A stretch of 64,000 nucleotides of DNA from Acetivibrio alkalicellulosi (GTDB taxonomy: Bacteria; Bacillota; Clostridia; Acetivibrionales; Acetivibrionaceae): NCBI GenBank assembly GCA_008125075.1, contig VLTH01000001.1, positions 1 to 64,000 of the forward strand, in the 5' to 3' direction. Positions within the stretch are counted from its first letter, which is position 1. Every line of letters starts with the position of its first letter. The translations under genes were made by a program, and so were the position numbers. Below are positions 31,253-35,203 of the stretch, in pieces. The notes under the pieces were generated by a model. That model was not told where the DNA came from. It searched no databases and saw only the letters and a program-made list of their open reading frames with translations.

Positions 31253-31282
31253 TTGTCATATTTCAAGAGTTTGGTGCGTCTA
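31253..31282 (+). promoter_or_regulatory. candidate ECF-type autoregulatory promoter
   Basis: CGTCTA at 31277-31282 matches the CGTC class of ECF -10 elements; TTGTCATA at 31253-31260 sits about 17 bases upstream in the -35 position. It lies just before an ECF sigma gene, the expected place for self-activation. The -35 does not match the common AAC core, so this is tentative. Confidence 0.4.
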
Positions 31283-31308
31283 ATAAGTGAAAGGAGTGTG
31301 AGAAATGA

Positions 31309-31836
31309 ATGTTATTTATTTTTACAACAAGTGATAATGATAGTACTAATATTGATTACCTTATTGATAGTTATAGCAAGAGTTTGATGCGTTTATGCTA
31401 CATATACTTAAAAGACTATCATCTTGCAGAAGACGCAGTTCAGGAAACTTTGTTTAAGGCTTATAAGTCATATAAGTACTTTCGAAAAGAAAGCAGTGAA
31501 AAAACATGGATTACAAAAATAGCAATTAACACATGTAAAAGTTATTTGAGAAAATATACAAACAAAGAAATTGTGGATAGCAATTATATTTTATTAGATT
31601 ACGAATCTAGGGATGAGGAAACAAAATTTTACAGGACTGATGAAGCAAAAGATCTTCTTAATGCCATTTATAATCTACCTCAAATATATAAACAGGTAAT
31701 ACTTCTGAAGTGTTATTTAGAACTTAGTATTTCTGAAATATCTAAAATAATAAAGCAAAAAGAAAACACTGTATCAGTAAGGCTAAAAAGGGCAAAAGAA
31801 ATTTTAAAAAAAGAGCTAAAGGAGGAAGTAATATGA
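31309..31836 (+). CDS. ECF (group 4) sigma factor of the serpin module
   Basis: 175 residues. Region 2: SLMRLCYIYLKDYHLAEDAV, QETLFKAYKSYKYFRK, KTWITKIAINTCKSYLRK. Region 4: LPQIYKQVILLKCYLELSIS, EISKIIKQKENTVSVRLKRA. No extra C-terminal domain. ATG 31309 follows AAGGAG; the nearby ATG at 31305 is out of frame and soon stops. Its stop overlaps the start of the membrane serpin (ATGA), the layout normally seen for a sigma factor and its anti-sigma. Sits between clpX and lonB, interrupting a chaperone/protease neighbourhood. Confidence 0.93.
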   Translation: MLFIFTTSDNDSTNIDYLIDSYSKSLMRLCYIYLKDYHLAEDAVQETLFKAYKSYKYFRKESSEKTWITKIAINTCKSYLRKYTNKEIVDSNYILLDYESRDEETKFYRTDEAKDLLNAIYNLPQIYKQVILLKCYLELSISEISKIIKQKENTVSVRLKRAKEILKKELKEEVI

Positions 31837-33185
31837 GTAAAATTCACCAAATTAAAGAAATAATTGATGTGAATCTAGAGTATCTTGACATTTCAATAGA
31901 TACTAAAAGCAGACTAAGAGAAAAAGCAAGAAAAAGGAGAGGGTTTGTAATGAAAAAGTATAGTATTGCTAGCATTGTTGTGATTACAGTTATAGTAGTA
32001 TTACTGACTTCATTCTATAATTCAAAAAATATAAAGATATATGCAAAAGATCTTATGGAGGGAATAATTCCCGAAGAAGTTCAAATCATTAATTTAAGTA
32101 GTGAATTTAATTTAGCTACTTTAGATTTTTCCATTGAACTATTTAAACACGCTTATCAAAAGGATAAAAATAGCCTTGTATCACCTGTATCTGTTTACTT
32201 AGCTTTGGGAATGACAGCTAACGGAGCTGATGGTGAGACTTTGCAGGAGTTTGAAAAATTACTTGGTGGATATAATTTTTCGATTGAGGAACTTAATAGG
32301 CATTATTATACTCTAGCAAAAAGCTTTTCAGACATAGAAAAAGGAAGTGTCAATATTGCAAATTCTGTATGGTACGGGAATGAATTTGACATTAACAAAA
32401 ATTTTTTACAAGTTAATGCAGACTATTATGGAGCAGATGCTTTTAAAGTGGATTTTAATTCTTCCAAAGCTATAAATGGCATAAATAATTGGGTGAAAAA
32501 TAAGACACAAAAAAATATTAATAAAATAGTAGATACAATTGATCCAGATACTATTATGTATCTAATTAACTCTATTTATTTTGAAGCAGAGTGGGAAGAA
32601 AAATATGCTAAAAGAGCTGTTAGAAAGGGAGAGTTTTATATTGACAATAATAACACTATATCAGTAGACTTTATGCATTCGAATGAACTAGAATATTTAA
32701 GAAATGATATAGGAAGTGGTTTTATGAAAAACTATAAAAATGGAAGGTATGGTTTTGTTGCTCTTTTGCCAGATGAGGGCATAAGTATAGATAGTTATGT
32801 CGAGTATTTAACGGCTGAAGTTTTTTTGAGCACATTAAAAAATAGATTAAATGAGGAGATTGGAGTGGCAATTCCAAAATTTAAGAGTGAATATGAAATT
32901 AATCTCGTTGAAACTCTCGAAGAAATGGGATTAAAAAAATGTTTCAGCAGTCAGGCTGATTTTAGTAAAATGGGTGAAAATAATATTTTTTTACAAGAAG
33001 TATTTCATAAAACATTTATTCAAATTGATGAAAATGGCACAAAGGCAAGTGCTGCTACAAAAAATGAAGTATATAAGAGTCTTATTATGGAAGATATTAT
33101 TTTTGATCGACCTTTTGTATATGCCATAATTGACATACAAACAAATCTTCCCTTGTTTATTGGGACAATGATAGATCCATCTTAA
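31833..33185 (+). CDS. membrane-anchored serpin, putative anti-sigma/protease sensor
   Basis: 450 residues. A basic cytosolic N-terminus of about 42 residues (MSKIHQIKEIIDVNLEYLDI ... KARKRR) and one membrane span (about 43-61) are followed by a complete serpin fold (about 90-450) outside the membrane: SLVSPVSVYLALGMTANGA, LINSIYFEAEWEEKY, FVALLPDEG, FDRPFVYAII, PLFIGTMIDP. The reactive-centre hinge is of inhibitory type (E400-N-G-T-K-A-S-A-A-T409), and the loop length to DRPF equals that of alpha-1-antitrypsin, placing P1-P1' at about S416-L417. Coupled by overlap to the ECF sigma gene, so the short cytosolic segment is the likely sigma-binding part. Serpin identity is firm; the anti-sigma role is inferred from layout. 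Confidence 0.85.
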   Translation: MSKIHQIKEIIDVNLEYLDISIDTKSRLREKARKRRGFVMKKYSIASIVVITVIVVLLTSFYNSKNIKIYAKDLMEGIIPEEVQIINLSSEFNLATLDFSIELFKHAYQKDKNSLVSPVSVYLALGMTANGADGETLQEFEKLLGGYNFSIEELNRHYYTLAKSFSDIEKGSVNIANSVWYGNEFDINKNFLQVNADYYGADAFKVDFNSSKAINGINNWVKNKTQKNINKIVDTIDPDTIMYLINSIYFEAEWEEKYAKRAVRKGEFYIDNNNTISVDFMHSNELEYLRNDIGSGFMKNYKNGRYGFVALLPDEGISIDSYVEYLTAEVFLSTLKNRLNEEIGVAIPKFKSEYEINLVETLEEMGLKKCFSSQADFSKMGENNIFLQEVFHKTFIQIDENGTKASAATKNEVYKSLIMEDIIFDRPFVYAIIDIQTNLPLFIGTMIDPS

Positions 33186-33240
33186 ACGATATATTATTTG
33201 ACAATTAGATGAAATGACATAATTTAAATAGAAAAAATAA

Positions 33241-33287
33241 ATATCAAATAGACGTTAATTTGTAATAATTTCACGTCTATTTGATAT
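33241..33287 (+). terminator. hairpin after the serpin gene
   Basis: ATATCAAATAGACGT (33241-33255) pairs perfectly with ACGTCTATTTGATAT (33273-33287), then AAGCTTTTTTAATT. Probable terminator separating the sigma/serpin pair from the downstream secreted genes. Confidence 0.75.
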
Positions 33288-33676
33288 TTAAGCTTTTTTA
33301 ATTATTGTCTCTTATAAAATTAATAATTAAATAATATATTAAAAACTTTGTTTTTACGGGTATTTTAAAAATGAATATAGAAACTTTAGCCCTTACAAAA
33401 AAACTTTATGTTTACAAACTGTAGAAAATTTAAATATAAAATAAAATTAATTAATTTTAATATATATATATATATATAATTGTTATTAAAGTTTAATTAT
33501 TGATTATAAAGTTAAACATAAAGCTACTTATTAATTAAAAATATTATTATTATATATATACATTAATAAGGGGGTGAATTTTTTACATATCAATTGCTAA
33601 TCATAAAAATATAAAAATTTATGATGAAATTCGATTAATTAAAAAGAAGATTACTAAACAAAGGAAAGGTGAAACT
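33288..33676 (+). other. AT-rich gap before the caspase-like gene
   Basis: 390 bases of very AT-rich sequence including an alternating (TA)n run near 33461-33478. No gene is convincing. A ribosome-binding-like AAGGGGGTG at about 33568-33577 is followed only by an 8-codon frame. No promoter with recognisable -35/-10 could be assigned. Confidence 0.4.
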
Positions 33677-34318
33677 ATGAAAAAAATTAGAAAGTATGGT
33701 TTAACGTGTATTTTGATAATTGCTATTGCTTTAACATGGTCGTCAATTGTATTTTCTCAAACAAAGTATGCATCTTGTTATGGTTTTCGATATTCAGCAT
33801 CTGAAAATACAAGACGAGATGCTACTAATGCTGCTAGGTCATATGAAATAGCTGGTTATGTTTCATTTGCAAATCATGATTACCCTGCTAATGTAGCATT
33901 AAGTAATTTAACTACTGATGACATATTCTTTTTTAGCGGTCATGCAAGTAGCGAGTTATTGCAATTCTATAATGGTAGTACTACTTCAAATATGACAAGA
34001 ACACAGGTAGGGAATAGGAACTTAAATAGAATGAGATTAGCTGTTTTGGGAGGTTGTAGAACTGCTAGTGGTACAAATAATATTACAAGAACATTTAACT
34101 TACAAGGTGCTGACTGTTCAATAGGCTGGACGACGACCACTACTTTTATACGTCATAGTTTTTGGCTAGATTATTTTAATTATTATTTAGAGATTGGACA
34201 AACTGTAAATCAAGCTAGACAAAATGCAGATGCTACTTTAGCTCTGATTTTTGGTAGTGATGTTGGAGGAACTAATAATCATAGGATTTATGGTAGTGGT
34301 AGCACAAAAATCAATTAA
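33677..34318 (+). CDS. secreted caspase-fold (CHAT/C25-like) putative cysteine peptidase
   Basis: 213 residues. Signal peptide at 1-28 (MKKIRKYGLTCILIIAIALT, cleavage near VFSQ-TK). The mature part carries the caspase-type dyad: His89 in DIFFFSGHAS at the end of one strand, and Cys127 in LAVLGGCRTA at the end of the next. The following GADCSIGWTT...FWLDYFNYYLEIGQTVNQAR resembles the C-terminal half of CHAT/gingipain-type domains. Start after AAAGGTGAAAC. Small for the family, with no added domain. It lies downstream of the membrane serpin, and serpins are able to inhibit caspase-fold enzymes. The peptidase assignment rests on motif reading. Confidence 0.7.
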   Translation: MKKIRKYGLTCILIIAIALTWSSIVFSQTKYASCYGFRYSASENTRRDATNAARSYEIAGYVSFANHDYPANVALSNLTTDDIFFFSGHASSELLQFYNGSTTSNMTRTQVGNRNLNRMRLAVLGGCRTASGTNNITRTFNLQGADCSIGWTTTTTFIRHSFWLDYFNYYLEIGQTVNQARQNADATLALIFGSDVGGTNNHRIYGSGSTKIN

Positions 34319-34366
34319 GCAGTACTTTGAAGTAAATTTTAAAAAGAAAAGATGAGGTGTCATAAT

Positions 34367-35203
34367 ATGAAAAAACTTAACAAATTATTATCAGTAGTTT
34401 TAGTATTAAGTTTGGCAATGAGTTCTGCTATTTATGTATTTGGAAATAATAATCGTACTAATGATGGAAAAACTAAAGAGAATAATATTGATAAAGAATT
34501 AAATATAACACTTAGAGATGAAAAAAACATTAAGCTAAAATATGATTATTCTTTTGATTTAAATAACTCAAAAGATAAAATACATAAATATAGAGATGAT
34601 AAGAATAATGAAATCTTTGTTAATGAAGACAAAAAAATAACTGGAATAATATACAAAGAAAATGAGTCAAAAAGAAAATCAAGAACTAATTTTGAGCAGC
34701 TTAAAAAAATAGCACAGAAAGAAGTAGAAAATTATGTTGATATTAATGACTATTGCTATGAAACTTATAGGCATCATGAGCAGTTACAAACATATACTTT
34801 TATTTGGACTAAATACATTAACAGTATTAAAACTGTTGACTCTATTCAAGTTACCTTAAGCAGTAATGGTGAATTATTATCAACTATTATGCCCAATGTA
34901 GGACTTTTTAATAGCAACAGTAGAGATAAAATGGAATTATCAAGAAAACATATAAGTGAAGAAGAAGCAGTTAAATTTTTAGAAAAAGTTATTAAAAACA
35001 ACTTTAAAAAACTAAATGATATTAGTCTAAAAAGCTATTCTATTTTAGAAGAAGAACTTTGTTTTGTTGAAAGTGGAGATCTTGTATGGAAGTATTTCAT
35101 TGAATTACAGTACTATGATGAAGAAAATGAAATTGATTTATCTACAGCAAAGTATGTTTTAATTAATGCTATATCAGGAGAAACTTTAGAAATACAGTAT
35201 TAA
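34367..35203 (+). CDS. secreted YcdB/PepSY-like protein
   Basis: 278 residues from ATG 34367, which follows GAGGTG; five upstream codons are in frame but unsupported. Signal peptide at about 1-26 (MKKLNKLLSVVLVLSLAMSS). The mature part has LKKIAQKEVENYV, YTFIWTKYINSIKTVDSIQV (the YcdB/YcdC-type domain motif of aromatic-W-x-R/K), HISEEEAVKFLEKVI and an ending YVLINAISGETLEIQY reminiscent of PepSY repeats. PepSY-type domains are often protease propeptides or inhibitors. Follows the caspase-like gene by 48 bases, so the two are likely cotranscribed and may act together outside the membrane. Confidence 0.65.
   Translation: MKKLNKLLSVVLVLSLAMSSAIYVFGNNNRTNDGKTKENNIDKELNITLRDEKNIKLKYDYSFDLNNSKDKIHKYRDDKNNEIFVNEDKKITGIIYKENESKRKSRTNFEQLKKIAQKEVENYVDINDYCYETYRHHEQLQTYTFIWTKYINSIKTVDSIQVTLSSNGELLSTIMPNVGLFNSNSRDKMELSRKHISEEEAVKFLEKVIKNNFKKLNDISLKSYSILEEELCFVESGDLVWKYFIELQYYDEENEIDLSTAKYVLINAISGETLEIQY

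Follow-up and report, generated by a model that had tools for sequence, protein, structure and literature searches.

An ECF sigma factor gene overlapping a gene for a membrane-anchored serpin in Acetivibrio alkalicellulosi: a predicted anti-sigma factor with a serpin as outer domain

Locus layout

Analysis was done of a gene pair of Acetivibrio alkalicellulosi, a clostridium of the cellulosome type, in which a gene for an extracytoplasmic function (ECF) sigma factor overlaps a gene for a membrane-anchored serpin, the latter being a predicted anti-sigma factor. The window is the whole stretch of 64,000 nucleotides that was analysed (assembly GCA_008125075.1, contig VLTH01000001.1, positions 1 to 64,000), and all window features given below lie on its forward strand. 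Labels in L, G and C denote loci, genomes and contigs.

The ECF gene (31309..31836) encodes a product of 175 amino acids having regions 2 and 4 of the sigma factors (Pfam Sigma70_r2, E value 1.1e-15; Sigma70_r4_2, 3.4e-10; TIGR02937 over its cut-off). Its TGA stop is overlapped by the ATG of the serpin gene (31833..33185) within the four bases ATGA, and the serpin gene, identified by its open reading frame (ORF), Pfam match and N-terminal profile, encodes 450 amino acids. These comprise a predicted cytosolic sigma-binding domain (residues 1-43; 31833..31961), a membrane span (residues 44-62; 31962..32018), a segment holding a tengpin-type N-terminal tail directly past the span (residues 67-93; 32031..32111) and a serpin domain (residues 96-449; 32118..33179), which includes the hinge and reactive centre loop (residues 400-424; 33030..33104). 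A preliminary description of this DNA had given an ECF gene coupled by ATGA to a short cytosolic segment, one span and a complete serpin, and this arrangement is borne out by the ORFs, Pfam and hydropathy. The same pair occurs again on contig C3 of the genome, also with a 4-base overlap, so the pairing is more than chance. In both copies it is the serpin gene that stands directly behind the ECF gene and is coupled to it, and no other anti-sigma candidate was found between or directly beside the genes of either pair.

Ahead of the pair, a predicted autoregulatory ECF-type promoter (TGTCATATTTC ... CGTC) lies at 31254..31280, and its elements are common to the upstream region of the C3 paralogue. 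The sequences TGTCATATTTC and TGCGTCTAAT are identical upstream of both pairs; the distance between them differs by one base from pair to pair, and the rest of the region has diverged. CGTC is a type of -10 element common among ECF factors. Behind the pair, an inverted repeat with 24-base arms followed by TTTTTT (33238..33290) is its likely terminator as judged by folding, with a hairpin energy of -24.3 kcal/mol over 33225-33310; the repeat is absent from the terminator-scan listing.

The N-terminal segment

Residues 1-43 are polar and rich in lysine and arginine and stand ahead of the hydrophobic stretch 44-62, and from hydropathy and this positively charged stretch one membrane span with the N-terminus inside is predicted (the structure model has a helix at 46-62, with low confidence). 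There is no cysteine ahead of the serpin domain and hence no lipobox. The His/Cys motif of zinc-binding anti-sigma (ZAS) domains was not found in residues 1-43, which lack cysteine, and DUF4179 (PF13786) gave no match at E values up to 1 in either serpin protein.

Homologues of the ECF factor outside this genome were collected from the order (13 loci, 58 genomes) and the class (three more loci, 391 genomes), and their neighbour genes were read. Each of the four most identical homologues (L147, L132, L148 and L149; 46-54%) has its gene overlapping that of a one-span protein, whose N-terminal segment is short and whose outer part differs; no serpin turned up in these four partners. Partners of related ECF factors matched DUF4179 below the cut-off (E value 1.8e-5 at L148, 8.5e-5 at L149 and 0.15 at L132). 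A profile made from the N-termini of the four partners and searched among 461 background N-termini ranks both serpin N-termini among other ECF partners, with E values of 1.5e-4 and 8.5e-4, the best-scoring protein that is not an ECF partner standing at 0.17. The largest set held 13 partners, drawn from the 16 ECF homologues, the excluded loci being L135 (a near copy of L134), L142 (poor alignment, E value 1.3) and L144 (no clear partner), and with its profile the serpin N-termini were found at 1.1e-3 and 1.8e-3. Profile comparison by hhalign gave a score of 31.8 for the four partners, where 200 column shuffles reached 21.6 at most (0/200 as good), and of 33.7 for the 13 partners against at most 15.2 in column shuffles. 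The N-terminal domain thus proved homologous to those of the partners of related ECF factors, and because of this homology we conclude that residues 1-43 form a predicted sigma-binding domain.

The serpin domain, its tail and its reactive loop

The serpin domain is complete, as PF00079 is matched by residues 96-449 over profile positions 3-370 of 370 (E value 2.1e-94). The best fold match, by Foldseek, is native tengpin (2pee, E value 6.3e-42), over 387 columns. The AlphaFold model has a mean predicted local distance difference test score (pLDDT) of 79.8 and displays a serpin body with loop residues 405-419 disordered. The pLDDT is 86 for residues 81-90 and 61 for residues 71-80, and the cytosolic part and the span are of low confidence. 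Hinge and reactive loop were assigned from alignments, paralogue identity and the model, with the P1 residue uncertain (K415 or S416). Small hinge residues are a mark of inhibitory serpins, and the window copy has them in its hinge GTKASAAT together with an exposed loop; the hinge of the C3 copy is nearly of the inhibitory type, with one leucine in the small-residue run.

From residue 71 onward the window protein aligns with 2pee from its residue 3 onward and also with lipoprotein serpins. In the alignment the anti-sigma segment and span stand where the lipoprotein serpins have their signal peptide and lipobox, and the same stretch follows right past the join, being IYAKDLMEGI in the window protein and QAANLMEGI in the serpin of L251. 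A loose form of this motif was found within the first 110 residues in 45 of the 157 serpins of the survey described below, against 8.4 expected from shuffles. In tengpin the native state is stabilised by the N-terminal tail, which attaches to a hydrophobic patch of the serpin body (PMC8233489), and tengpin without this tail goes latent (PMC12702362). Among solved structures the window serpin domain is nearest to tengpin, tail included, but the window protein adds a cytosolic domain and the overlap with an ECF gene, both of which are missing in tengpin.

The second copy and the other serpins of the genome

Six serpins are encoded in the genome (G000), which consists of three contigs totalling 5.3 Mb. 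Four of these serpins are ordinary: one is a lipoprotein, and the other three bear dockerin-like repeats (by eye). Unlike the window protein, these four have neither the cytosolic domain nor the ECF overlap. The remaining two are the window protein and its copy on C3, each overlapping an ECF gene by 4 bases. Identity between the copies is 73% for the ECF products and 57% for the serpin proteins; the synonymous divergence (dS) is about 1, and the ratio of nonsynonymous divergence (dN) to dS is 0.19 for the ECF gene and 0.29 for the serpin gene. The reactive loop shows the lowest identity (42%, dN 0.58), the span is nearly as low (43%), and just past the reactive loop identity is 69%. These comparisons suggest that both copies are maintained, with different loops.

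Behind the C3 pair, at a distance of 36 bases, lies a gene for an exported protein of 275 residues with a C-terminal hydrophobic span (L036 6381-7208), which is a candidate output of the C3 copy.

Search for the pair in other genomes

Searches for the full-length pair were done in overlapping sets of 58 genomes of the order, 391 of the class and 398 of the phylum, and in the class and phylum searches no more than four candidates per genome were scored. Three order matches which begin near the start of the query were rejected as full-length pairs. Those in G057 (from query position 10) and G041 (from position 7) both read through stops, and that in G026 (from position 8, no stops) is a membrane serpin with no ECF gene found upstream (L038). 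Among the matches listed in the order, class and phylum searches, the remaining ones begin at query position 22 or later. A search with two peptide patterns gave 13 loci, none of which has an ECF match.

Membrane serpins of another type were seen in the course of these searches (L037 5744-7129, L038 4528-5916, L039 2477-3901 and L040 2458-3798). They have a short cytosolic N-terminus and a YPKAYAFDD-like stretch past the span, and no ECF gene was found alongside them in the fetched stretches. In one congener the site behind clpX, which is that of the window serpin pair, holds a gene for a zinc-finger-type anti-sigma factor together with an ECF frame that is broken into two ORFs (L294 489-1359).

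ECF genes near separate serpins

An initial set of 109 distinct serpins included seven from other genomes with an ECF match upstream. A larger count was prompted by these seven cases and enlarges the same sample, so that the two are not independent. The larger scan covered 120 regions, with serpin flanks of up to about 3.5 kb each, taken best first from the order, class and phylum searches, together with 20 further stretches and the window. It yielded 157 distinct serpin ORFs of at least 250 residues, which are best matches and not a random sample. The ECF profile was built from 35 sequences, three of them from serpin-bearing loci (L108, L151 and L155) besides the own pairs of this genome.

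Among the 135 serpins with at least 2 kb of upstream sequence, 12 had an ECF-profile match within 2 kb upstream on the same strand (13 matches, two of them at L247), and the other 123 had none. No match was found upstream on the opposite strand of these 135 serpins, nor downstream on either strand of 138 serpins (Fisher p 1.7e-4 for 12/135 against 0/138). When the two own pairs and L211 were dropped, the count was 9/132 (Fisher p 1.4e-3). L211 is counted in the former figure and not in the latter, since its first protein lacks region 2. Counting L211, the cases outside this genome come from eight families of the genome tables. The finding of ECF matches upstream of serpins in several genomes indicates that a link between ECF signalling and serpins recurs.

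Seven loci (L169, L172, L189, L191, L192, L194 and L251) have the order ECF gene, one-span protein, serpin, and in all of these except L169 the serpin has a lipobox (by eye). At L251 (1786-4783) the serpin is a close homologue of tengpin (E value 2.9e-219 over the whole 2pee chain), and the protein between ECF gene and serpin matches DUF4367. At L216 one additional gene stands between ECF gene and serpin. At L247 (3521-5402), in a relative, the ECF gene is truncated and no one-span protein was seen in between.

L211 (1938-4006) was considered as a second pair of ECF factor and membrane serpin, and it was rejected because its first gene encodes an XRE-type helix-turn-helix fused to sigma region 4, without region 2. 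This gene overlaps that of a membrane-anchored serpin of 524 residues by ATGA, and the locus may be described as an independent analogue without a full sigma factor. This genome alone was found to join a predicted anti-sigma domain and a serpin in a single protein whose gene follows a full ECF gene.

Interpretation

In our judgement the locus as a whole is probably best explained if the 450-residue protein is an ECF anti-sigma factor with a serpin sensor, from which the sigma factor would be released upon attack by a protease. The preliminary description had already proposed an anti-sigma factor with the serpin as outer domain, and the N-terminal homology, the second copy and the common promoter elements support that proposal at the level of sequence.

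The steps may be pictured as follows. At rest residues 1-43 would hold the sigma factor, and the native serpin with its docked tail would shield the membrane-proximal stalk. A protease attacking the reactive loop would cause the serpin to snap to its loop-inserted form, in which it may trap the protease, and loop insertion would loosen the tail and leave the stalk open to a first cut. An RseP-type protease could then cut the span and free the sigma factor, which would transcribe the pair from the CGTC-type promoter and so remake both proteins. As the sensor would be a single-use inhibitor, its consumption would be the signal and its resynthesis the response; and the two copies, having different loops, might sense different proteases. 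A homologue of M50 site-2 proteases is present in the genome (E value 6.7e-52), as it is in all the 14 control genomes. For the RsgI anti-sigma factors of Clostridium thermocellum, RseP and then ClpXP are described to act (PMC12203970). Cellulosomal serpins have been suggested in a review to inhibit subtilisin-like proteases (PMC12484212), which makes subtilisins of the cell itself or of its competitors plausible triggers.

Several observations weigh against this explanation. No full-length pair was found outside this genome in the order, class and phylum sets (58, 391 and 398 genomes, with no more than four candidates per genome scored in the latter two), and none lies between clpX and lonB in the four congeners (4/4). 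The preliminary description had named a pairing not conserved in related genomes as a sign of error, and to this extent the sign is partly there, the full-length pair having been found in this genome alone. The initial ten-partner N-terminal profile, taken from the order, was weak by itself (E values 0.48 and 1.5), although its profile comparison gave 27.2 against at most 14.9 across 300 shuffles; the profile was remade once more identical ECF homologues turned up in the class. By dN/dS between the two copies, constraint is weakest in the cytosolic segment (0.58 over 43 codons, dS being low there). The ECF frame on C3 (L006 685-764) has no standard start, a GTG behind a ribosome site meeting TAA at codon 4 and the frame being open from an ATT, which may reflect a rare start, a frameshift or an assembly error. 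Latent tengpin (2pef) stands third among the Foldseek matches, so the fold match cannot separate the native from the latent state. A genome search with the promoter pattern, which misses the C3 copy as the spacer there is one base shorter, gave two matches against four in a reversed control, and no regulon can be drawn from it.

The alternatives differ in what they take from the serpin. The protein might be an anti-sigma factor whose serpin is simply a cleavable bait, so that any cut of loop or stalk destabilises it and neither trapping nor loop insertion is needed. Regulated proteolysis of anti-sigma factors commonly begins with an outer cut, and the disordered reactive loop of the model would suit such a bait, but the hinge GTKASAAT keeps the small residues expected of inhibitory serpins. 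Docking of the tail is moreover linked in tengpin to the native, loop-out state (PMC8233489, PMC12702362), and we hold the bait to be rather unlikely. Somewhat less credit is given to a membrane serpin that acts as effector only, that is, as a protease inhibitor under ECF control whose cytosolic stretch is an inherited anchor, with the sigma factor governed by its own level or in some other way. This would agree with the loci elsewhere at which an ECF gene and a gene for a one-span protein are followed by that of a separate, exported serpin, and with the other-type membrane serpins (L037-L040), which have no ECF gene alongside in the fetched stretches; it is opposed by the homology of the cytosolic segment to ECF partners and by the lack of any other anti-sigma candidate between or directly beside the genes of both pairs. 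An anti-sigma factor whose serpin fold has turned into a non-inhibitory receptor for another ligand (a peptide, a metabolite or a cell-wall part) appears highly improbable, since the window hinge is of the inhibitory type and the C3 hinge, but for its leucine, nearly so, even though thyroxine-binding globulin, a non-inhibitory serpin, is among the fold matches.

The anti-sigma factor with a protease-sensing serpin can be carried further to a spring-loaded, one-shot receptor, which we put forward tentatively and with less than even confidence. Here the irreversible shape change of the serpin would itself be the signalling step, the tengpin-type tail that is freed by loop insertion being at the same time the stalk of the anti-sigma factor. 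Protease attacks would be counted by the loss of the suicide inhibitor that disarms them, each loss ordering its replacement, and the two loops would make a two-channel protease sensor. Such a receptor may have arisen by fusion into one protein of an anti-sigma and a serpin function, which in some other genomes of the phylum are divided between adjacent genes of ECF operons.

Known systems and value of the finding

The nearest likeness is with SigV-RsiV of Bacillus subtilis (ECF30), which is also an ECF factor with a membrane anti-sigma factor. RsiV both senses and inhibits lysozyme, its outer domain binding the enzyme (PMC5014341), and the segment past its span guards the first cut (PMC6066255). 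The RsiV domain DUF4179 is weakly matched by partners of the ECF factors related to that of the window. The window protein would act in the manner of RsiV, the lysozyme receptor being replaced by a serpin. Unlike RsiV, the window protein has a serpin as outer domain, the expected signal is a protease, the serpin proteins gave no DUF4179 match, and a covalent, single-use chemistry is expected.

A serpin which takes part in its own control is described for Bifidobacterium breve in a review (PMC7822027), by which papain raises serpin transcription in one strain and another strain has a SerU-dependent autoregulatory loop through the two-component system SerRK, operating when proteolysis exceeds inhibition. 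B. breve has a two-component system and a separate serpin, whereas the window serpin would itself be the anti-sigma factor. The SigI-RsgI systems of C. thermocellum and Acetivibrio, which are cellulosome producers, likewise have membrane anti-sigma factors with exchangeable outer domains (PMC3413522), but these biomass sensors bind polysaccharides and their sigma factors are of the SigI kind. An RsgI-type protein is also present in this genome (L097, RsgI_M, E value 2e-26).

Anchoring as such is not new, as a serpin phylogeny already classes some prokaryotic serpins as membrane-anchored (PMC8233489). The open-access papers searched on serpins with ECF or anti-sigma factors gave no title or abstract opening on such a protein, with subscription papers and domain-architecture databases outside the scope of that search, and an ECF anti-sigma factor with a serpin outer domain is, as far as found, undescribed before. 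Should the explanation hold, it would supply a first example, again as far as found, of an anti-sigma factor that senses through a serpin, and of bacteria signalling across the membrane directly by an irreversible change of protein conformation. Bacterial serpins would gain a role in signalling and a ready genetic assay, and the cell might sense proteases through the very inhibitor that they use up. The operons of ECF gene, one-span protein and serpin elsewhere would then offer an explanation, open to test, for the control of some serpin genes in bacteria.

Neighbouring genes and further ECF loci

Two genes for exported proteins follow the pair, as the preliminary description had placed them, and both are judged to be outside the system. 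One encodes a caspase-like protein (33677..34318) and begins 491 bases past the serpin stop, with the strong hairpin in between; the other encodes a protein of 283 amino acids (34352..35203). A caspase-type dyad had been noted in the former, and its His/Cys pair is kept, by eye, in the homologues at L287, L289 and L288, while its Pfam family matches stay below the cut-off (DUF6345, E value 0.005; CHAT, 0.044) and its single-sequence structure model, with a pLDDT of 32, is too low for use. The label YcdB-like given to the latter was not recovered, since the 283-residue protein matches no Pfam family at E values up to 1.

Homologues of the caspase-like gene were found twice on contig C2, once in G002 and, weakly, in G005, and no ECF or serpin match was seen in the fetched stretches of these four loci (1.5-kb flanks at L287 and L289). 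At L287 and L289 the homologue is followed by one of the 283-residue gene (phmmer E values 1.2e-101 and 7.2e-96); at L290 and L288 none was found in the fetched stretch, which counts against a strict cassette. The C3 pair is followed by a different gene. The two genes were therefore rejected as members of the system on account of the two-gene cassette at L287 and L289, the hairpin and the different gene behind the C3 pair, and they look like a separate cassette which adjoins the pair. The suggestion that the caspase-like protein is the target, the trigger or a product of the system is accordingly not upheld, given the 491-base gap, the hairpin and a cassette that stands elsewhere without ECF factor or serpin in the fetched flanks.

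Further ECF genes of interest were seen in the survey. Near-identical ECF genes lie 1.3 kb apart at L089 and L090 with a transposase-like ORF alongside and a masked stretch nearby, and the second of them is followed by a gene for a DUF4179 protein (E value 2.5e-9). At L096 (1-2043), in the same genome as the window, the neighbour of an ECF gene encodes a protein whose N-terminus bears cysteine and which also has a hydrophobic span and a GH5 cellulase domain (PF00150, E value 1.7e-13); it is a possible ECF-linked polysaccharide sensor.

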